This document shows positions 3,191-57,545 of a DNA stretch of 57,545 nt, in pieces; the first letter of the stretch is position 1, and the number at the start of each line of letters is the position of its first letter. The stretch covers positions 1 to 57,545 of the IMG/VR virus record IMGVR_UViG_3300010413_000035; one strand, written 5' to 3'. The notes beneath the pieces were generated by a model, which searched no databases, was not told where the DNA came from, and worked only from the letters and a program-made list of their open reading frames with translations. This stretch comes from a virus. The position numbers and the translations under genes are program-made.

Positions 3191-3523
3191 ATGAAATATT
3201 TTAGTCGTAGAACAGTTAATAATGACAAAAAAGCTTTTCAAATGATAAAATTATTAATTGAAAATGATAAACTAACAACAACTCAACTATCTAATTTACT
3301 TGATATTTCTTCAAGGCAAATTTCAAATTACAAAAGATATATAAATGATTGCTTGGGAATAAAAATAAATGTAACTTTAGGGAATCAAGGAGGCTATTCA
3401 ATAGAATCAAGAAAATTGAATAGTAAAGAAATATCTTTTTTAAGAGATAAGCTACCAACAAAATTATTTAATAAAATCAATCATATAAATAAACTTAGTA
3501 TTTTATTTGAGGAGGATTCATAA
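3191..3523 (+). CDS. winged helix-turn-helix regulator (DeoR/HTH_11-like)
   Basis: 110 residues. Residues about 30-72 read as a winged HTH: LTTTQLSNLLDISSRQISNY forms the helix-turn-helix and GNQGGYSI the wing, as in HTH_11/DeoR N-terminal domains. No sensor domain follows, only about 30 residues ending acidic. It is the first gene of the head operon and ends one base before the methyltransferase start, with the methyltransferase ribosome binding site inside its 3' end. Position and size suggest a transcription factor for late genes or an autoregulator; this is inferred. The DNA-binding fold is fairly secure. Confidence 0.75.
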   Translation: MKYFSRRTVNNDKKAFQMIKLLIENDKLTTTQLSNLLDISSRQISNYKRYINDCLGIKINVTLGNQGGYSIESRKLNSKEISFLRDKLPTKLFNKINHINKLSILFEEDS

Positions 3524-11626: not shown

Positions 11627-11657
11627 GTTTGACAATGTAGCACACTTATTATATAAT
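11627..11657 (+). promoter_or_regulatory. promoter with recurring operator
   Basis: TTGACA (11629-11634), 17-bp spacer, TATAAT (11652-11657). The operator reads GTTTGACAATGTAGCAC (11627-11643). This is the only such promoter inside the head region and directly precedes the glycan cassette. Its leader lacks the hairpin of the early cassettes. Confidence 0.88.
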
Positions 11658-11701: not shown

Positions 11702-11863
11702 ATGACAGATTATTTTGATTTTAGCGACGATTTTTGGAATGAAGAAGAAGAGCAACAAGATTTAAATAATAATTTAGGAAATGAAGATTTAACTGAAGAA
11801 GAAATATTATTAAATAAAGAATTTGAAATAGAAATGTATAATGCGAAATATGGAGTATTATAA
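11702..11863 (+). CDS. very acidic small protein, 53 aa
   Basis: A short frame starting MTDYFDFSDDFWNEEEEQQ, with GAAAAGGGGATTTTATTATT upstream. About one third of residues are Asp or Glu, which recalls DNA-mimic or RNA-polymerase-binding phage proteins, but this is only a resemblance in composition. It has its own promoter (11629-11657) and terminator (11877-11905) and so forms a single-gene unit. Function unknown. Confidence 0.7.
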   Translation: MTDYFDFSDDFWNEEEEQQDLNNNLGNEDLTEEEILLNKEFEIEMYNAKYGVL

Positions 11864-17159: not shown

Positions 17160-17180
17160 TCTTTACTATTATTAAATAAT

Positions 17181-17212
17181 GTGCTACAATGTATATAAAG
17201 CGTAGTACATTA
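17181..17212 (+). promoter_or_regulatory. inverted operator arms and possible promoter
   Basis: GTGCTACA (17181-17188) and GTAGTACATT (17202-17211) form an imperfect inverted repeat of the recurring operator. TGCTAC and TACATT could serve as degenerate -35 and -10 boxes for the gene at 17234. The boxes are poor, so promoter activity is uncertain, but the operator resemblance is good. Confidence 0.5.
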
Positions 17213-17233
17213 TTTTTTTATGGGGAGTTTAAA

Positions 17234-38248: not shown

Positions 38249-38734
38249 TTAATATTCTATATGATTTACTTTTATTGATACTTTAAAATCACCATCGCCA
38301 AACCATTTCCTCAAATCTTTTAAAAACAAATCAATTACAAACTCAGCTCCTGCGTTGTTAAATTCAGTTCCAGCCAATAGTTTAACAATATATTCCCTTT
38401 TATATTTTGTTGGATTTTTATAATTATAAATTAAACCATCTGCATCCTCAAAGTAAGTTAAATCTCCGTTTTGATGTTTTTGTGGTATGCTTTTTTTATC
38501 TTCTTTGCAAAAAGTTACACTAAGACTTACTTTTATAACATCTGCAAACTTAACTTTTTTTACATCAACTTTAGAAAGCAAAAACTCAACAATATCATCA
38601 AAGTTAGGCAGTTTCATTGCTTTAATTTTTCTTAATTTTACATAATATTCAAATCTTTTTTCTTTAAAATTAAAATCACCATCAATATTTTGGAATCCCA
38701 GTTCAGCTTTGCTTTGCCTTGTATTATAAACCAA
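38249..38734 (-). CDS. hypothetical protein, 161 aa, TTG start
   Basis: Not recognised. The frame is open to 38776, but the best start is TTG at 38734, six bases from GGTGGAGGA. This limits overlap with the upstream gene to 11 bases. Alternating Lys- and Phe-rich segments, mostly alpha/beta. It includes a DGDFNF turn near the start and a WFGDGDFKVSIKVN strand pair at the end. Second gene of a two-gene unit from the operator-bearing promoter at 38937-38965. Confidence 0.68.
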   Translation of the reverse strand: MVYNTRQSKAELGFQNIDGDFNFKEKRFEYYVKLRKIKAMKLPNFDDIVEFLLSKVDVKKVKFADVIKVSLSVTFCKEDKKSIPQKHQNGDLTYFEDADGLIYNYKNPTKYKREYIVKLLAGTEFNNAGAEFVIDLFLKDLRKWFGDGDFKVSIKVNHIEY

Positions 38735-38903
38735 AAAGTCCTCCACCTTTCTTTTCTTGATTTCTTTTAGTATCAACTATAGGAAAATTTTGTTTACCTT
38801 CTTCAAGAATGTCAAAGTCTTCAAGACCAAAACCACTATTAATTCCATTTTTCTGCTCATTTTCAGCATTTCTTTTTAATTTATCTCTATCTCTTTTATT
38901 CAT
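38724..38903 (-). CDS. small basic hypothetical protein, 59 aa
   Basis: A short minus-strand frame starting MNKRDRDKLKRNAENEQKNG behind TTTTGGAGGTTACATA, an excellent ribosome binding site. Basic N-terminal helix, acidic centre, Gly-rich end. First gene behind the promoter at 38937-38965. Coupled to the gene at 38249-38734. Unknown. Confidence 0.7.
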   Translation of the reverse strand: MNKRDRDKLKRNAENEQKNGINSGFGLEDFDILEEGKQNFPIVDTKRNQEKKGGGLFGL

Positions 38904-38936: not shown

Positions 38937-38976
38937 ATTATATAATAAAAGTGCCACAATGTAAATACTATGTAGC
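38937..38976 (-). promoter_or_regulatory. minus-strand promoter with paired operator arms
   Basis: On the minus strand: TTTACA (38960-38965), 17-bp spacer, TATAAT (38937-38942). The arms GTGCCACA (38951-38958) and TGTAGCAC (38971-38978) form an inverted repeat of the recurring operator with one mismatch. Confidence 0.83.
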
Positions 38977-38984
38977 ACCTTATT

Positions 38985-39500
38985 TTATAATTTAAATTCT
39001 TTTTTTATAAATGGATAAAATAACTTTAGACCTTGCCCTTCTGGTATCATATCACAAATTAAGTGACCAATAAAACCCAGAATAGTTCCCAACATAAAAA
39101 AGTTATGAAATTTAAAATTATATAATAAAATTAATATTAATAACCCTAACCATCCATGCATCAAGACTCCCCGATGTTTAAATATATTGTATGTCAACTC
39201 ACTTAAAGAAAGACATTTTTGATTCTTCTTTAAGGGTTTTAAGACATTGATCCAATTTTTCGCTATCCATTGTATTAATTTATATCCTTTTCTAAGGTAT
39301 GGAAAATTATAATTAAAATATGATTGTTCAGCATCTATATCGGGAACAAAACTCCCCAACATAACTCCAGCACTTAATAATAAAGATTCTGGAATATTTA
39401 AACTTGTTGGATATCCAAATATTTTATTTTCTAATGTAATAGTTGTTACTGTAACTCCTATTACAACAAGTCCCCCTCTAAAGTGTCCAGTTTTATTCAT
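38985..39500 (-). CDS. YdjM-like membrane metal-dependent hydrolase family protein
   Basis: 171 residues. PDID at 53-56, HRG at 109-111, H115, and GHLICD (H146, D150) followed by GLKLFYPF match the YdjM/DUF457 family of small membrane proteins with a putative metal site. Several hydrophobic segments (about 10-25, 40-53, 112-130, 133-150). The enzymatic activity of the family is not established. GAAAAGGAATGATAAAAA precedes the ATG. Transcribed from the left-going half of a divergent promoter pair. Confidence 0.82.
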   Translation of the reverse strand: MNKTGHFRGGLVVIGVTVTTITLENKIFGYPTSLNIPESLLLSAGVMLGSFVPDIDAEQSYFNYNFPYLRKGYKLIQWIAKNWINVLKPLKKNQKCLSLSELTYNIFKHRGVLMHGWLGLLILILLYNFKFHNFFMLGTILGFIGHLICDMIPEGQGLKLFYPFIKKEFKL

Positions 39501-39535: not shown

Positions 39536-39602
39536 ATTATATAATAAATTGTGTTGCAATGTCAATAATTTGGTTGACAGTGTCGCACTTTTATTATATA
39601 AT
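39536..39602. promoter_or_regulatory. divergent promoters with inverted operator arms
   Basis: Leftward: TTGACA (39560-39565), 18-bp spacer, TATAAT (39536-39541). Rightward: TTGACA (39574-39579), 17-bp spacer, TATAAT (39597-39602). GTGTTGCAATGTCAA (39551-39565) and TTGACAGTGTCGCAC (39574-39588) are inverted copies of the operator, matching at 11 of 15 positions. Layout matches the site at 46774-46839. Confidence 0.88.
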
Positions 39603-39639: not shown

Positions 39640-39852
39640 ATGAATTTAAGTATAAGTGATTATTTATTAATTGCTATAACACATTTTTTAATTATTAACC
39701 ATTGTATAAATGGATTTAAAAATATAATAAAATTTGCAAAAGAAGATATAAAAGAAATTAGTGTTAAATGGATAATTTTTATTTTGGATATCGGTTATGA
39801 TGTAGCTTTTATATTATTAATGGGTTTAATATTAAGAATAAAATATTTATAA
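39640..39852 (+). CDS. small membrane protein, 70 aa
   Basis: Two predicted membrane helices (about residues 6-22 and 44-66). AAAGTGAGGATAATAAATA before the ATG. First gene of a unit under the recurring operator and followed by a lipoprotein, so both products act at the cell envelope. Not recognised; exclusion of other phages is a reasonable guess only. Confidence 0.72.
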   Translation: MNLSISDYLLIAITHFLIINHCINGFKNIIKFAKEDIKEISVKWIIFILDIGYDVAFILLMGLILRIKYL

Positions 39853-39874: not shown

Positions 39875-40267
39875 TTGAAAAAATATATTATTGGAATAGT
39901 TTTAATCTGGATTATAATTTTATCGGGATGTAATGAAGTAGAATCAACTGCAGAAGTTGTAAAACAAAATACAACTAAAAGCGAATTGGAAGAAATTAAT
40001 TTGCAAATTGAAAATCAAAAAAGTTCTTATGATGAAGAAATGGAAGAAACAATAATTACTGGAGAAATTAAAAATGATTATTCCCAAGAATTGGAATATA
40101 TTGAACTTGAAATAACTTATTATGATGTTAACGGAAATCAAATTTTTTCAGATTTTACCAATACTTGTAATTTAGAATCTGGCAAGACTTGGAAATTTCA
40201 ATTGAGTTATTGGGAAGATTTTGACTCTTATAAGTTAAAAATTGGTGATATGTTTTTAAGTGAATAA
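39875..40267 (+). CDS. lipoprotein with FxLYD-like domain, TTG start
   Basis: 130 residues. Signal peptide 1-18 with lipobox L16-S-G-C19, so it should be lipid-anchored on the outer face of the membrane. Residues about 60-125 (TGEIKNDYSQELEYIELEI; YYDVNGNQIFSDFTNT) resemble the FxLYD domain of surface lipoproteins. AAGTGAGG lies upstream of the TTG at 39875. Phage lipoproteins such as Ltp of TP-J34 block superinfection, so immunity to other phages is plausible but inferred. Confidence 0.83.
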   Translation: MKKYIIGIVLIWIIILSGCNEVESTAEVVKQNTTKSELEEINLQIENQKSSYDEEMEETIITGEIKNDYSQELEYIELEITYYDVNGNQIFSDFTNTCNLESGKTWKFQLSYWEDFDSYKLKIGDMFLSE

Positions 40268-43579: not shown

Positions 43580-43870
43580 TTAAAAATTTTTTGGCAATAG
43601 TAAACTTAAAGTATCTAAAGCTTGGACTATATCACATTTTAATGTTACTGTTTTTTCAGTATTTTTAAGTAATGTAATTAAATAAAAATATTGCACTCGA
43701 TTTATTTCATATGCTTTTAATATTTTATTTAATGAATTTTTTGTTTCTATTTCTTTTATTTCTCCTAACCTTTTAAAACCATTTTTATAAATTTCTATAG
43801 TTCTTCTTATAGTTCTATGTTCTATATCTATTTTTTTAGAAATATTGTAAGTATTTAATAAAGTATTCAA
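43580..43870 (-). CDS. Rha-like small regulator, TTG start
   Basis: 96 residues. NISKKIDIEHRTIRRTIEIY (about 9-28) and YEINRVQYFYLITLL (about 54-68) follow the Rha N-terminal pattern (a compact DNA-binding-like domain with later Y.LT). It is much shorter than full Rha. It starts at TTG behind AGGGGGAG. First gene of the replication ATPase operon, so it may autoregulate replication. Confidence 0.62.
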   Translation of the reverse strand: MNTLLNTYNISKKIDIEHRTIRRTIEIYKNGFKRLGEIKEIETKNSLNKILKAYEINRVQYFYLITLLKNTEKTVTLKCDIVQALDTLSLLLPKNF

Positions 43871-45407: not shown

Positions 45408-45905
45408 ATGGTTGTTGTATATGATAGTAGAGAACAAATGAATCAACATATTGTAAATCAAATTGAAAAGCTCGGAATAAAAACAATAAAAAAGAAATTA
45501 GATACTGGTGACTATAGTATTTTAGGTTATGAAGATAAAATAACTATAGAACGTAAAAAAGACCTGGACGAATTAGCTGGTAACTTTTGTTATGATAGGG
45601 ATAGAATAAGAAAAGAATTTGAAAGGGGAAAAGAAGCTAGTCAAATAGTAATATTATTTATAGAAAATAATTCTTATGAAGATTTATTAACATATGGAGA
45701 TAATTTCAAGCCTGTTAAATTTAAAGATAAAAACGGAAAAATTAAATACAGGAAAAAGATGCATAAAAACGCTTTAAAAGGCAATTTGTATAAATGGCAA
45801 GAAAGATATAATTTTTATATAATATGGGGGAAAAAGAAAGTTCCTGGGAACTTTTTTGTAGGAACTTTTAAAAAATTTTTGGAGGATAATAAAAAAAATG
45901 AATAA
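45408..45905 (+). CDS. ERCC4-type nuclease
   Basis: 165 residues. YDSRE (5-9), GDYSI (34-38) and IERKK (47-51) form the ERCC4/XPF catalytic pattern GDx(n)ERKxxxD, with D54 next. The C-terminus is basic. It probably cuts branched or flap DNA structures during phage recombination or replication. Strong AAGGGGG site before the ATG. Overlaps the next gene by eight bases. Confidence 0.88.
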   Translation: MVVVYDSREQMNQHIVNQIEKLGIKTIKKKLDTGDYSILGYEDKITIERKKDLDELAGNFCYDRDRIRKEFERGKEASQIVILFIENNSYEDLLTYGDNFKPVKFKDKNGKIKYRKKMHKNALKGNLYKWQERYNFYIIWGKKKVPGNFFVGTFKKFLEDNKKNE

Positions 45906-46497
45906 AAATAATAATCATTTTTTAGAAAAGGCAAATAATAATAATGAAAATATAACATTTTTGATTGATCAAACTAGAAAATATTTAGATTATATAGAAG
46001 AACATTATATAAATGTCCAGAAGGTTTGGGTCAATGTTCAAAAAATATTTAAAAAAGAAAAATTTATTTATGATGATTTTGAATATAGTATTTTATCATA
46101 TCAAATATTAATACATGATATTTCTAAATTAAGTCATGAAGAATTTATCCCATATAGAGACTATTTTTTTGTATATAAGAATAAAGAAAGTCTATTAGTA
46201 AAAAATGCAATGGAAAAAGCCTGGGAAAATCATTTAAATCAATTTGGAAGTATACATCATTATCAAACAATTCAAAAATACAATTATCATTGTGGCTGTT
46301 ACCCAAATTTAAAAGTATTACATTTAATTCATATGTGCATCGATTGGATAGCAATGGGAATTAAGTTTAAAAACTCGGCTATTGACTATTATAAAAAAGA
46401 AAAACATTTAATGAAATTTAAAGAAAAGTCAGATTATGATTTTATAGAATGGTTTTTAGAAACTTATTATGATTATAAAGAAAATAGCCTCGTATAA
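45898..46497 (+). CDS. DUF5662-like protein
   Basis: 199 residues. HDISKLSHEEFIPYRDYFF (about 64-82), AWENHLNQFGSIHHYQ (about 104-119) and the DWIAMGIKF segment match the DUF5662 family often found in phages. The His-Asp and later His-His pairs suggest an HD-like metal site. Activity unknown. Last gene of the two-gene nuclease operon. Confidence 0.78.
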   Translation: MNKNNNHFLEKANNNNENITFLIDQTRKYLDYIEEHYINVQKVWVNVQKIFKKEKFIYDDFEYSILSYQILIHDISKLSHEEFIPYRDYFFVYKNKESLLVKNAMEKAWENHLNQFGSIHHYQTIQKYNYHCGCYPNLKVLHLIHMCIDWIAMGIKFKNSAIDYYKKEKHLMKFKEKSDYDFIEWFLETYYDYKENSLV

Positions 46498-46502
46498 AAG
46501 GT

Positions 46503-46539
46503 AAAAAAAACGATGTATTTAATTTACATCGTTTTTTTT
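46503..46539. terminator. bidirectional intrinsic terminator
   Basis: AAACGATGTA/TACATCGTTT stem with A and T tracts. Separates convergent genes. Confidence 0.92.
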
Positions 46540-46743
46540 CCAATACTCGTCTTCTTCTAAATTATATTGTTTTATAAAATCTTTTTTTTGGTTATCATCC
46601 ATATTATTATAAATTTTATATAAAGTCTTTTTTATTTCAGTTGAAATTGTAGAGCCTTGAGTCTCTAAATATTTTCCAACAACAAAATAAACCTCATTAT
46701 TAATTCTAAAGCTTTTACTGTTACATCTTTGTTTTTTAGCCAT
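46519..46743 (-). CDS. Arc-type ribbon-helix-helix protein, candidate master repressor
   Basis: 74 residues from the ATG behind TAGGAGGGATTTTAAA. Basic N-terminus, then SKSFRINNEVYFVVGKYLE and QGSTISTEIKKTLYKIYNN, the strand-helix-helix of Arc/MetJ repressors. The C-terminus is acidic. Its own promoter contains the strongest copy of the recurring operator (46788-46825), and the divergent early operon starts from the same site. Together with its position this makes it the best candidate for the protein that binds all GTAGCAC-type operators. That link is inferred. Confidence 0.75.
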   Translation of the reverse strand: MAKKQRCNSKSFRINNEVYFVVGKYLETQGSTISTEIKKTLYKIYNNMDDNQKKDFIKQYNLEEDEYWKKNDVN

Positions 46744-46773: not shown

Positions 46774-46839
46774 ATTATACAATAATAGTACTACAATGTC
46801 AATTAAATGTTTGACATTGTAGTACATTTAATATATAAT
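46774..46839. promoter_or_regulatory. divergent promoter pair with perfect 15-bp inverted operator
   Basis: Leftward: TTGACA (46797-46802), 17 bp, TATAAT (46774-46779). Rightward: TTGACA (46811-46816), 17 bp, TATAAT (46834-46839). GTACTACAATGTCAA (46788-46802) is exactly inverted at 46811-46825 with an eight-base gap. Both -35 boxes lie inside the arms, so one bound protein would shut both promoters. Confidence 0.93.
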
Positions 46840-46877: not shown

Positions 46878-47417
46878 ATGGAGAGAAATGAATATATAAA
46901 AAAAGTAGATGAAAGTTATAAAAAAGCTTTTAGCATAACAGATTATATTGAAACTAAAATTAAACAATTGGGAGAAATAGAAAGTTATTATTATGATGTT
47001 TTAAAAATTAAAAATGAATATAGAAAAATAGATAAAACTTTAAAATATTATAATGCAAATAGCACATTTAACTGTTATAAAAGACAAACAAAAAATAACA
47101 ATGATGTAGTAAAAAACTGCAGTCCGATTTTAGAAAAATTAAAATTATTAGAAATTGAGATAATTAATTCTAATTTTAGGGATGCAATTGATTTAATAGA
47201 AAAAATAGAAATGAAATTAAAAGGCAAAAAAAGAAAACCAAAATATAAATATATAGTTCTATATTACAATAATCAAAATTTTTATGAAAAGCTCCAAAGA
47301 TGCAATAAAAAAACTAAAAATATAGAATCAATTAAAAAAAGTAATGATGCAGTAATTAAAAAATGTATGGAAATTTTAGATTTGATAAAAAATGTTGAGG
47401 GGGATTCAAATGCCTAA
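46878..47417 (+). CDS. coiled-coil early protein, 179 aa
   Basis: Not recognised. The ATG at 46878 is preceded by GATTGGAGTTGACTCAA; the frame from 46863 would begin inside that site. Almost all helical, rich in Lys, Asn, Ile and Glu, without a membrane segment. First gene of the large early operon behind the divergent operator. Confidence 0.75.
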   Translation: MERNEYIKKVDESYKKAFSITDYIETKIKQLGEIESYYYDVLKIKNEYRKIDKTLKYYNANSTFNCYKRQTKNNNDVVKNCSPILEKLKLLEIEIINSNFRDAIDLIEKIEMKLKGKKRKPKYKYIVLYYNNQNFYEKLQRCNKKTKNIESIKKSNDAVIKKCMEILDLIKNVEGDSNA

Positions 47418-49168: not shown

Positions 49169-49188
49169 CCTTGGAAGGGGATAATAAA

Positions 49189-49593
49189 ATGAAATATGAA
49201 GAAATGAAAGAGCCTAATAATTATTTGAATGATAATAAAAATTTAAGTTATGTTGAAATAGCCAGAAAAGGTTTTGAGCTAATAAATTTAATAAGAGACT
49301 GGAATAAAGAAAATGATTTTGAAACTTGGGACGAGATTAGTTATGAAAGAAAATTAATTTTAATTGAAAATGTAAAAGCAGTTGAAGAAAATCCGAATTT
49401 GACAAGCAAAGAAGAGCATAATAAGTGGATGAATGCAAGACTAGCGTGTGGCTGGAAGTATGCTCCAGTTACAAATAGAAGTAAAAAAGAACATTCTTGT
49501 CTAGTCCCTTATAAAGAACTTAATTTTTACCAAAAGTTAAAAGATAAATTATGGCTGGAACTGGTTAAAAATTTGCTGGAAGAATATAAATAA
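49189..49593 (+). CDS. RyR-domain protein, 134 aa
   Basis: The ATG at 49189 follows GGAAGGGGATAATAAA; the TTG-type frame at 49171 is not needed. The segment EEHNKWMNARLACGWKYAPV (about 79-98), then KKEHSCLVPYKELNFYQKLKD, is the RyR repeat domain pattern found in phages and in ryanodine receptors. Phage RyR proteins have been suggested to bind nucleotide-type ligands, so interference with host nucleotide signalling is a possible role. The domain call is good; the role is inference. Confidence 0.82.
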   Translation: MKYEEMKEPNNYLNDNKNLSYVEIARKGFELINLIRDWNKENDFETWDEISYERKLILIENVKAVEENPNLTSKEEHNKWMNARLACGWKYAPVTNRSKKEHSCLVPYKELNFYQKLKDKLWLELVKNLLEEYK

Positions 49594-50802: not shown

Positions 50803-50834
50803 GTATTGCAATGTATGACGAACTATGATATTAT
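50803..50834 (+). promoter_or_regulatory. promoter of the tRNA-like small RNA, with operator
   Basis: TTGCAA (50806-50811), 17 bp, TATTAT (50829-50834). The operator GTATTGCAATGTATGAC (50803-50819) is a diverged copy. Predicted start near 50841. Confidence 0.83.
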
Positions 50835-50847
50835 ATTGTTAATAGTT

Positions 50848-50920
50848 AAGGCTATAGTTCAAAGGAAGGATACTCCTAGGGGCAGTGGAGAGATTTACAG
50901 TTCGAGTCTGTAATAGCCTT
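50848..50920 (+). tRNA. tRNA-like element without a canonical anticodon loop
   Basis: 73 bases. Acceptor AAGGCTA/TAGCCTT perfect. U8-A9 are followed by D stem GTTC/GGAT with G18-G19-like GG at 50864-50865. The T arm is TTACAG-TTCGAGT-CTGTAA, with a canonical loop but 6 bp instead of 5. The anticodon arm has only CTCC/GGAG (50873-50876, 50887-50890) around a ten-base loop TAGGGGCAGT, and no U33-anticodon-purine arrangement can be placed. The CCA end is not encoded. It is either a decayed tRNA or a tRNA mimic. Confidence 0.68.
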
Positions 50921-51041
50921 ATAGTAAGTAAACAAATTGATTAATAGGAAAATAGTCACATAATAATAATAATAATAACAATTTATCCCGATACCCTATA
51001 AATATCGGGACTCCCTAGAAAGAACGAGTCAAATAATTAGT

Positions 51042-51572: not shown

Positions 51573-51604
51573 GTATTGCAATGTAGCACAAACGATTATA
51601 TAAT
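51573..51604 (+). promoter_or_regulatory. early promoter cassette with operator
   Basis: TTGCAA (51576-51581), 17 bp, TATAAT (51599-51604), operator GTATTGCAATGTAGCAC (51573-51589). Confidence 0.9.
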
Positions 51605-52361: not shown

Positions 52362-52478
52362 ATGAAAATAAATATTATAAAAGTTGATTTTTGGTGTGAA
52401 TTAATGCAGTTAGATGTTGCCGAATGTCCTGACAATATGGACTGCGACGAGGAATGTAGCGAAAACGATAAAAAATAA
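52362..52478 (+). CDS. small Cys-rich acidic protein, 38 aa
   Basis: Starts MKINIIKVDFWCELMQLDVA behind GAAAGGATAATAAA. Cys at 12, 22, 28 and 32 in an acidic context may bind metal. Precedes the Nudix gene by 19 bases. Unknown. Confidence 0.62.
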   Translation: MKINIIKVDFWCELMQLDVAECPDNMDCDEECSENDKK

Positions 52479-52497
52479 TAAAAGGAATGATAATAAA

Positions 52498-53007
52498 ATG
52501 AATTTTAATAACAAACCAAACAAACAAATATTTGATAAAAACGGAGTTGAACATTGGGTCTCCAGAAGTATTTCAATGTTGGGACTAGTATATTGTTTAA
52601 CAGATGATGAAATTTATATTTTGGCAACAAAACGTGGGTCTGCAGTTAACTATTCCAACAAATGGTGTTTAGTTTGTGGATATTTGGACTATAATGAATC
52701 AATTCTTGAAGGAATCTGCAGGGAGGTTTATGAAGAAACAAATTTGTTTATTCCACCTTGTAATTTTACACTTTGGGGAATTGAAGACGACCCGACTAAA
52801 GATGAAAGGGAAAATATAACATTTAGATATTATTCTAAAGTGGATGAGGATTTTTATTTGGAATCATATATAAATATTTCTAGGGTCTGCAATAATGAAA
52901 CCTTGGAAGTTAAGTGGATAAATTATAAAGATATTGCCTTGTATGATTGGGCATTTAATCATTTTGAACTTTTAAAAGAATATAAAGAAGCTGGAAAATT
53001 TATATGA
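52498..53007 (+). CDS. Nudix hydrolase
   Basis: 169 residues from the ATG behind AAAGGAATGATAATAAA. The Nudix box starts at G61: GYLDYNE...REVYEETN, with R75, E76, E79 and E80 all in place. The usual Gly near the end is Asn82. Nudix enzymes cleave nucleoside diphosphate derivatives; in phages this can mean NAD-type metabolites, nucleotide clean-up or RNA-cap removal. The substrate cannot be told. Confidence 0.87.
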   Translation: MNFNNKPNKQIFDKNGVEHWVSRSISMLGLVYCLTDDEIYILATKRGSAVNYSNKWCLVCGYLDYNESILEGICREVYEETNLFIPPCNFTLWGIEDDPTKDERENITFRYYSKVDEDFYLESYINISRVCNNETLEVKWINYKDIALYDWAFNHFELLKEYKEAGKFI

Positions 53008-53058: not shown

Positions 53059-53101
53059 AAAAAGAAGCTTAGAAACTAAAAAAATTCTAAGCTTCTTTTT
53101 T
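53059..53101 (+). terminator. intrinsic terminator, AAGCTT family
   Basis: AAAAAGAAGCTTAGAA (53059-53074) pairs with 53085-53100. Nearly the same terminator is repeated at 53531-53574. Confidence 0.93.
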
Positions 53102-53119: not shown

Positions 53120-53185
53120 GTATTGCATTGTAGCACATAAAGAGTTATAATATATTTAACGGGTTAAGCAATACCGATTATATTT
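53120..53185 (+). promoter_or_regulatory. early promoter cassette with operator and leader hairpin
   Basis: TTGCAT (53123-53128), 17 bp, TATAAT (53146-53151), operator GTATTGCATTGTAGCAC (53120-53136). The leader contains a CGG...ACCG pairing (about 53160-53177), a variant of the AGG/CCT hairpin elsewhere. Confidence 0.9.
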
Positions 53186-53530: not shown

Positions 53531-53574
53531 AAAAAAAGAAGCTTAGAAAATAAAAATTCTAAGCTTCTTTTTTT
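53531..53574. terminator. bidirectional terminator, AAGCTT family
   Basis: AAAAAGAAGCTTAGAA-type arms as at 53059-53101. It serves both the plus gene to its left and the minus Rha gene to its right. Confidence 0.93.
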
Positions 53575-54319
53575 ATTTATTTAAATTATTAAATTCAATT
53601 TGTTTAAATTCTATATTTGGCAATACTTCTTTAACTCCTAAACTATTACTCATTTCGACAACTCTTTTTTTAGCTATTTGAAATATTTCTTTATAAAATA
53701 ATTCCTTTTTCATTCCTTCAATAATTGCAGTTTTAACAATCATATCTGCAACTATAATTTTACTAAGTTGTGTTATATTTAAGATTTCTCTTACATTTTT
53801 AAATTTTTCTTGTAGCATAAAAAAAGCTGAATTTTCCATTTTTGAAAACAACATATAATATCTATCTGCTGACTTGCTACCTTGTTTTTTAGCATATTGA
53901 ATAAAATCTTTTATAATATCGGTTTCTTGCTTTCTTCCTATTTTAGAACGGTTTCTTGTTTCTATATATTGTTGATTCTGCTTTTGTGTTTTTTGTTCTA
54001 GTATCCATTTACGCATATTAAAAAACTCTTTTGTTATTTTCTTTTTAAATTCCAATACTTTGTCATTTTCATTTTGTTTGACTCTTAACATCATAATTAA
54101 AAATGTTAATTGCTGTTCGTTTAAATAGTAAATTATGGTAGGTTTTCCATGTCTTTGGGACATTTCAAATTCTATTACTTTATTTTCCAATTCGTCAAAA
54201 TCTTTTCTATATTGTTTAATTAAATTTGATATACTTTTATGAGTTCTTTTCAATTCCCTTGAAACTATTAAACTAGTTGTTAATGGTTCATTATTTTTCA
54301 ATAAAACTAATGCTGTCAT
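53573..54319 (-). CDS. Rha-family regulatory protein
   Basis: 248 residues. The N-terminal Rha domain spans about 12-110: TTSLIVSRELKRTHKSISNL, a FEMSQRHGKPTIIYYLNEQQ segment and LTFLIMMLR. A second helical domain (about 140-240) is family-specific. Phage Rha proteins act in phage-host regulation and are often linked to antirepression. GGAGTTAAACA precedes the ATG. Its promoter carries two 18-bp direct repeats, consistent with autoregulation. Confidence 0.85.
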   Translation of the reverse strand: MTALVLLKNNEPLTTSLIVSRELKRTHKSISNLIKQYRKDFDELENKVIEFEMSQRHGKPTIIYYLNEQQLTFLIMMLRVKQNENDKVLEFKKKITKEFFNMRKWILEQKTQKQNQQYIETRNRSKIGRKQETDIIKDFIQYAKKQGSKSADRYYMLFSKMENSAFFMLQEKFKNVREILNITQLSKIIVADMIVKTAIIEGMKKELFYKEIFQIAKKRVVEMSNSLGVKEVLPNIEFKQIEFNNLNK

Positions 54320-54402: not shown

Positions 54403-54465
54403 GTATTGCAATGTAGCACACTTAGAGTTATAATAGTATTAGAGGTTGAGGTTAAACCTACTATA
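54403..54465 (+). promoter_or_regulatory. early promoter cassette with operator and leader hairpin
   Basis: TTGCAA (54406-54411), 17 bp, TATAAT (54429-54434), operator 54403-54419. The leader AGGTTGAGGTTAAACCT forms the same hairpin as at 866-884; the two cassettes are almost identical over about 60 bp. Confidence 0.9.
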
Positions 54466-56398: not shown

Positions 56399-56465
56399 GT
56401 ATTGCAATGTAGCACGAACGGAGTTATAATATATTTAGCGGTTGAAGTTAAGCCGACTACATTCT
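56399..56465 (+). promoter_or_regulatory. early promoter cassette with operator and leader hairpin
   Basis: TTGCAA (56402-56407), 17 bp, TATAAT (56425-56430), operator 56399-56415. The leader pairs CGG-TT with AA-GCCG, a compensatory variant of the AGGTT/AACCT hairpin. Confidence 0.9.
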
Positions 56466-56606: not shown

Positions 56607-56647
56607 AAAAAAGAAGCTGAGATTTTTTTATTTCTCAGCTTCTTTTT
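56606..56647 (+). terminator. intrinsic terminator, AAGCTGAG type
   Basis: AAAAAGAAGCTGAGA and TCTCAGCTTCTTTTT arms. Related to the AAGCTT-family terminators, with paired changes in the stem. Confidence 0.93.
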
Positions 56648-56664: not shown

Positions 56665-56696
56665 GTATTGCAATGTAGCACATAAAGAGTTATAAT
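56665..56696 (+). promoter_or_regulatory. early promoter cassette with operator
   Basis: TTGCAA (56668-56673), 17 bp, TATAAT (56691-56696), operator GTATTGCAATGTAGCAC (56665-56681). Its leader shares TATTAGAAGTTGAGG with the others, but the closing arm of the hairpin has decayed. Confidence 0.9.
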
Positions 56697-56746: not shown

Positions 56747-57448
56747 ATGTTAAATACTAAAATTGATGAATTATACAAAAATGTTGAGTTTACTTCAAAA
56801 GTTGGATATATGACTAAAGGGGATGTAATAAAACAGATAGATTGTTTGTTAGAAAATATTATAGTTGAATATTACGTAATTGAAAAAATAGAAACTAGAT
56901 TAAATAAAAAAGTAAAAAAATTAAATTCAAAAAGTAGAAGTTATGAAGAACTTTGTAAAATTAGAAAAGTATTAGAAGATGAATTTATTGACCAATTACC
57001 AGACGAATATAATTTGCCAGAAGTTGAAGAAGAAGAAGAAACAACAGAAGTTGAAGAAGAAGAAGAAACAACAGAAGTTGAAGAAGAAGAAGAAACAACA
57101 GAAGTTGAAGAAAAAGAAGAAACAACAGAAGTTAAAACAAATATTAATAATATAAATTCAATAGATTACAAAAAAATAAAAAATGTATTATTAGAAAAAA
57201 AAGGGATAAAAATTATAAAAGAAAGAAGACAATTAAACAGATTTAAATATGTAAATTGGAAAAATGAATATCATTATTTAAACCTTGAGGAATTGATATT
57301 ATTATATTTAAATACTATAGGGCTTGATAATGGTAAATATGAAGAATATAAAAAAGCAAAAAAACAAAAATTAAAAAATAAATATGAAAAGTTAAAAGAA
57401 AAAAGATTAAATTTTAAAAAAGAAGTCGCAGCATTTTATAACAGTTAA
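56747..57448 (+). CDS. early protein with EVEEEEETT tandem repeats, 233 aa
   Basis: AAGGGAGAGATTATT before the ATG. The N-terminal 85 or so residues are helical. Four nine-residue EVEEEEETT repeats (about 92-127) form a very acidic linker. The C-terminal 105 residues are basic and helical, with KYEKLKEKRLNFKKEVAAF at the end. Two domains joined by a variable acidic hinge are seen; the function is unknown. The gene runs across the window overlap (its end is also at 1-47). Confidence 0.78.
   Translation: MLNTKIDELYKNVEFTSKVGYMTKGDVIKQIDCLLENIIVEYYVIEKIETRLNKKVKKLNSKSRSYEELCKIRKVLEDEFIDQLPDEYNLPEVEEEEETTEVEEEEETTEVEEEEETTEVEEKEETTEVKTNINNINSIDYKKIKNVLLEKKGIKIIKERRQLNRFKYVNWKNEYHYLNLEELILLYLNTIGLDNGKYEEYKKAKKQKLKNKYEKLKEKRLNFKKEVAAFYNS
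57020..57127 (+). repeat. 27-bp tandem repeat, four units
   Basis: Units begin at 57020, 57047, 57074 and 57101. The first three are identical and the fourth has one G-to-A change. In frame, encoding EVEEEEETT. Confidence 0.95.
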
Positions 57449-57545
57449 AGGGGGGAAATTAAAACCCCTTTATCCCTTAAATAATAATTGAAACGTGGCT
57501 ATATTTTGTCACATTATAAAAATTTGAAAGGATGATAAAAATTGG
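57402..57545. repeat. 144-bp terminal direct repeat (right copy)
   Basis: Exact duplicate of 1-144. Removing one copy gives a 57,401-bp circle. The last five bases include the TTG start of the gene annotated at 141-395. Confidence 0.95.
57447..57471 (+). terminator. hairpin after the repeat-protein gene (duplicate of 46-70)
   Basis: AAAGGGG/CCCCTTT stem without a good T-tract. Same sequence as 46-70 because of the terminal overlap. Confidence 0.5.

Follow-up and report, generated by a model that had tools for sequence, protein, structure and literature searches.

Arc and Mnt of phage P22 are small phage ribbon-helix-helix (RHH) repressors whose operators lie at promoters within a local immunity region. 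In SPbeta, the lysogeny-maintaining repressor MrpR, a protein with a tyrosine-recombinase fold, binds SPBRE, a 15-bp element that recurs in the promoter regions of some ten genes of the phage (PMC10516654, which also mentions Arc and Mnt). The L5-type immunity repressor of temperate mycobacteriophages is a monomeric helix-turn-helix (HTH) protein with many stoperators inside transcription units (PMC9283540). In the archaeal virus SIRV2, which has archaeal promoters, a regulatory sequence is common to the strong promoters of small early genes, including that of the regulator itself, Aca8, which is predicted to be a wHTH protein. These early genes are later repressed (PMC11065993).

Here, we analyzed a window of 57,545 bases from an uncultured phage, which is the whole of one IMG/VR virus record. 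A short asymmetric element stands at roughly ten promoters across this genome, and it is doubled at 46788 to 46825, beside a gene for a 74-aa putative RHH regulator. The likeness to SPBRE is that of a repeated element at about ten phage promoters, although a single repressor is only proposed here. Also, MrpR is a recombinase-fold lysogeny repressor, whereas the candidate here is a putative RHH-type protein. We rejected the possibility that the element is SPBRE because its core, CANTGTNGYAC, did not occur in the 49.9 kb of SPbeta that were examined and the promoter sequence is different (SPBRE promoters in SPbeta share AATATGTATA). Like the L5-type stoperators, the element is short, asymmetric, and scattered across the genome, and it would serve as the operator of a single repressor. 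However, nearly all copies here are at promoters, and no integrase was found. As with SIRV2 Aca8, a virus-specific sequence marks strong early promoters, with that of the putative regulator included, but these are sigma70-type promoters and a putative RHH protein rather than an archaeal promoter and a predicted wHTH protein. With Arc and Mnt, the 74-aa protein shares small size, the putative RHH type, and an arginine at the last outward-facing position of the strand. Unlike them, it is associated with a dispersed promoter family instead of a local immunity region, and the Arc model misses it. Judged by sequence, the element family belongs to none of SPBRE, the L5 stoperators, and the SIRV2 Aca8 sequence; it is the logic that matches. 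If true, an RHH-type protein in a dispersed-operator role in a bacterial phage would be new.

The record has an exact 144-bp direct terminal repeat (1 to 144 and 57402 to 57545). Therefore, the genome is probably complete, at about 57.4 kb, and the repeat is either a real DTR or the overlap of a circular assembly. G+C content is 21 to 35% in 2-kb windows over the whole genome. Recognized genes encode a terminase, a portal protein, RecT, a RecD-like helicase, an endolysin, and a ParB-like/methyltransferase protein. The sole close relative found was a 17-kb contig (L002) with 91% identity across the structural region, and its coverage excludes the inverted-repeat locus. No relatives were found with the 704-aa protein and the DUF5662 protein as queries.

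The initial annotation had described a perfect 15-bp inverted repeat with a -35 box within each arm, and both features were borne out. The left arm, GTACTACAATGTCAA (46788 to 46802, minus strand), and the right arm, TTGACATTGTAGTAC (46811 to 46825, plus strand), are complementary at 15/15 positions and are separated by an 8-bp spacer, TTAAATGT. Comparable inverted repeats (arms of at least 15, at least 5 G/C, and a loop of 3 to 12) occurred in 0 of 100 dinucleotide shuffles versus 2 in the genome. Each arm holds a TTGACA -35 box together with the operator core. The box at 46802 to 46797 and a TATAAT at 46779 to 46774 (minus strand) make up the promoter of the 74-aa gene, and the box at 46811 to 46816 and a TATAAT at 46834 to 46839 (plus strand) make up the promoter of the early operon. 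Both of these divergent promoters have 17-bp spacing and match the sigma70 consensus at 12/12 positions; the genome has four perfect N17 promoters versus 0.09 expected. The expected transcription starts of both are outside the inverted repeat, and neither predicted transcript takes it in. Therefore, the inverted repeat is a DNA element and not an RNA hairpin or terminator.

To the right is an early-type operon, a run of small unannotated genes from 46878, the first of which encodes 179 aa with no assigned function (46878 to 47417, plus strand). To the left is the gene for the 74-aa protein (46522 to 46743, minus strand; stop codon at 46519 to 46521), which begins with an ATG at 46743 behind AGGAGGG, outside the inverted repeat. 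A bidirectional terminator-like hairpin with a 15-bp stem and A/T tracts (46503 to 46539) terminates both this gene and the converging gene at 45898 to 46497.

This site had also been called the strongest operator in the genome and had been read as a switch between two genes. It is the only perfect doubled element in the genome, and it has GTAC where most other family sites have GCAC. However, its arms are two members of a family with no fewer than 12 core sites, and a second divergent pair (39551 to 39588) repeats its layout with an identical 8-bp spacer. The core CANTGTNGYAC has 12 copies in the genome versus 0.17 expected, and 11/12 are 8 to 9 bp upstream of a TATAAT box. The promoters of this phage that share the short element are far more numerous than chance would give. 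The element or a diverged copy is carried by each of the five perfect TTGACA-N16-18-TATAAT promoters of the genome. With the element at roughly ten promoters, a regulon is therefore a better model than a two-gene switch; a divergent operator-promoter pair beside a likely RHH repressor gene is supported, but its description as an isolated switch is wrong.

The copies fall into two classes. Class A (TTGACANTGTNGYAC, 8 bp to TATAAT) comprises the copies at 11629, 38965, 39574, 46802, and 46811 and, in diverged form, one at 39565. The copy at 11629 to 11643 (plus strand) is in a perfect promoter with a small ORF at 11702 downstream, and it is present in L002 too; that at 38951 to 38965 (minus strand) is in the promoter of a 59-aa ORF (38724 to 38903). 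In the second divergent pair, the right arm (39574 to 39588, plus strand) is in the promoter of 39640 to 39852. The left arm, GTGTTGCAATGTCAA (39551 to 39565, minus strand), is the diverged copy, with no exact core match, and is in the promoter of a YdjM-like gene (38985 to 39500). Class B (ATTGCAATGTAGCAC, 9 bp to TATAAT) is on the plus strand at 827 to 841 (GTTGCAATGTAGCAC + 9 + TATAAT; gene from 904), 51575 to 51589 (gene from 51649), 53122 to 53136 (gene from 53205), 54405 to 54419 (gene from 54491), 56401 to 56415 (small zinc-ribbon-like gene from 56481), and 56667 to 56681 (gene from 56747). A degenerate class B copy (50805 to 50819, plus strand) adjoins tRNA-Pro (50848 to 50921) on its upstream side. 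The twelfth core copy, at 17191 (17181 to 17195, minus strand), is an ambiguous member with a weak -35/-10, and it lies inside a possible terminator, where a T-run comes after an AT-rich hairpin.

Near-identical terminator-like inverted repeats (AAAAAGAAGCTTAGAA...) are found near class B promoters, at 53059 to 53100, 53531 to 53574, and 56608 to 56647, and these are repeated terminator-promoter cassettes. The product of one class B gene (56747 to 57448, plus strand) has acidic repeats (EEEEETTEV).

By eye and by alignment, the 74-aa protein appears to have the layout of an RHH protein. Its identity to four Pfam-confirmed RHH proteins is 15 to 26%, and a strand arginine (Arg13) is common to all six aligned proteins. 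A profile of the four RHH proteins, built without the 74-aa protein, ranked it first among 686 ORFs (E=1.4). The RHH models PF01402 and PF03869 (Arc) had no match in the genome at E<=10, and sequence searches of Pfam, PHROGs, NCBIfam, and the PDB returned no match supporting RHH for this protein. Homologues were not found in viral contigs, phage records, plasmid records, or the PDB. The RHH assignment in the initial annotation agrees with the aligned layout but is without any library-model match, and from these sequence comparisons we consider it plausible.

The element is also present upstream of RHH genes in other, unrelated viruses. A scan of other viruses for TTGACANTGTAGYAC followed by a -10 box yielded 63 stretches (38 nonredundant). 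The gene directly behind the element matches Pfam RHH_1 in 4 of the 23 scanned stretches with a usable downstream gene (L006, L034, L012, and L064), versus 0 of 56 genes behind other TTGACA promoters on the same contigs. This difference has a Fisher p of 0.006 (0.02 if the homologous pair L006 and L034 is taken as one case) in a test chosen after the L006 case had already been noticed. In L064, the RHH gene is also accompanied by a GTACTACA...TGTAGTAC repeat. A control scan with a permuted spacer gave 15 nonredundant promoters, one of which precedes an RHH-like gene (judged by eye), and the 5/38 for the element does not differ significantly from the 1/15 for this small control (p=0.45). We toned down the idea of an overwhelming RHH association after this control, and the sequences are suggestive of a link between the element and RHH proteins across viruses. 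No phage records were found for the RHH proteins of L034 and L064. Three marine contigs (L003, L029, and L030) have sporadic element matches among many TTGACA promoters with unconserved spacers, and we treated these matches as chance and not as true carriage of the element.

The best explanation, which we put at about an even chance, is that the inverted repeat is a putative double operator of a phage-wide family, read by the 74-aa RHH-type repressor for early shutoff. It would consist of two back-to-back copies of a phage-wide operator with the core CANTGTNGYAC, overlapping the -35 box and adjacent spacer in very strong promoters of the host sigma70 type. The 74-aa protein, made from the leftward promoter, would bind the element as dimers or tetramers and block RNA polymerase by steric repression over the -35 box. 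It would first be expressed alongside the early genes and would then repress its own gene together with the divergent early operon and all other promoters that carry the element. The outcome would be a pulse of early expression and then early-to-late shutoff. The regulator-like gene carries the perfect doubled copy, as autoregulation would predict. The GTAC of the doubled site, in place of the GCAC usual in the family, speaks against this explanation, as do the lack of library RHH matches to the 74-aa protein and the result of the permuted-spacer control.

A broader claim is more tentative, and we put it at somewhat below even. In it, a tiny RHH-type protein would act as master regulator of an early regulon of about ten promoters scattered over the genome of a bacterial phage, and its operator would mark early, perhaps antidefense, genes that are readable off that genome. 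If true, one short motif would delimit the early regulon in a phage lineage with almost no other annotation and point to its host-takeover genes. It would also show an RHH protein at work genome-wide instead of at one immunity region, with a simple layout in which an off switch lies within the -35/spacer of every strong early promoter. Regulated or neighboring early genes include those for an RyR-domain protein in an early-type region (49171 to 49593, plus strand; PF02026, E=4e-10), which is a candidate nucleotide-binding or antidefense gene, and a NUDIX hydrolase between class B promoter cassettes (52414 to 53007, plus strand; PF00293, E=1e-11). Another encodes a small lipoprotein downstream of the second divergent pair (39875 to 40267, plus strand), whose similarity to Cor superinfection exclusion is weak (phrog_1119, E=7e-4).

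The alternative that survives best, although we regard it as unlikely, is that the operator family is genuine but has another reader, such as a Rha-type regulator, a 110-aa HTH protein, or a host factor, and that the 74-aa gene is merely one target. Two Rha-family regulators, one short and one full length, are encoded on the minus strand (43580 to 43870 and 53573 to 54319; PF09669), a weak HTH protein of 110 aa is encoded at 3191 to 3523, and no library model bears out the RHH assignment of the 74-aa protein. However, there is no element directly before the Rha or HTH genes, the perfect doubled copy is at the 74-aa gene instead, and RHH genes are behind the element in other viruses.

We consider it improbable that the conserved spacer is a promoter-strength element, or an activator site for host or phage-modified RNA polymerase, and that the repeat is two facing promoters. 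Nearly all copies are at a -35/-10. In addition, class B copies have flanks and leader sequence in common too, and class A copies are diverged outside the element; part of the class B similarity may be recent duplication. However, the -35 and -10 shift jointly by 1 bp relative to the core between classes A and B, and the core sequence is kept while its register to the -10 moves. This 1-bp shift argues that the core is read by a factor other than sigma, and it suggests a separately recognized operator laid over the promoter. Also, the hexamers of class A match the consensus perfectly as they stand, leaving no need for a helper, and spacers are unconserved in other viruses rich in TTGACA promoters.

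A lysis-lysogeny or carrier-state switch is quite improbable. The divergent repressor/early-operon layout, the two Rha-family regulators, and the Cor-like lipoprotein would fit it, and Rha-type regulators are common in temperate phages. However, models for tyrosine integrase (PF00589), serine resolvase (PF00239), and ParA (PF13614) had no match in the genome. Integration or partition machinery was not found, and a ParB-like/methyltransferase gene is present. The carrier or plasmid-like state raised in the initial annotation is unsupported by these searches, and its remark that no integrase was visible agrees with them. Its remark that no CI-like protein was visible needs a qualifier, given the two Rha-family regulators and the weak HTH protein. 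Furthermore, a single symmetrical operator would silence both genes, the repressor's own included, which favors a pulse or shutoff over bistability. Given the Rha-family genes and the weak Cor-like similarity, a bistable lysogeny or carrier switch keeps a small probability.

It is extremely unlikely that the inverted repeat arose as a palindrome by chance or acts in transcribed RNA as a hairpin or terminator: a pattern scan flags it as terminator-like on both strands, but none of the shuffles had such a repeat, and we rejected the terminator reading because the repeat is upstream of both predicted starts and has no T-run.

At 17170 to 17220, AATAATGTGCTAC/GTAGTACATTATT form a hairpin followed by a T-run, with a core match inside, and this is either a terminator or a double operator. 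The class B pattern was not found elsewhere, and no other viral contig had the divergent-pair pattern. The sole match to the divergent-pair pattern was a palindromic CTACANTGTCAA-N4-TTGACANTGTAG at 849 to 876 of L009, a Bacteroides genome contig.
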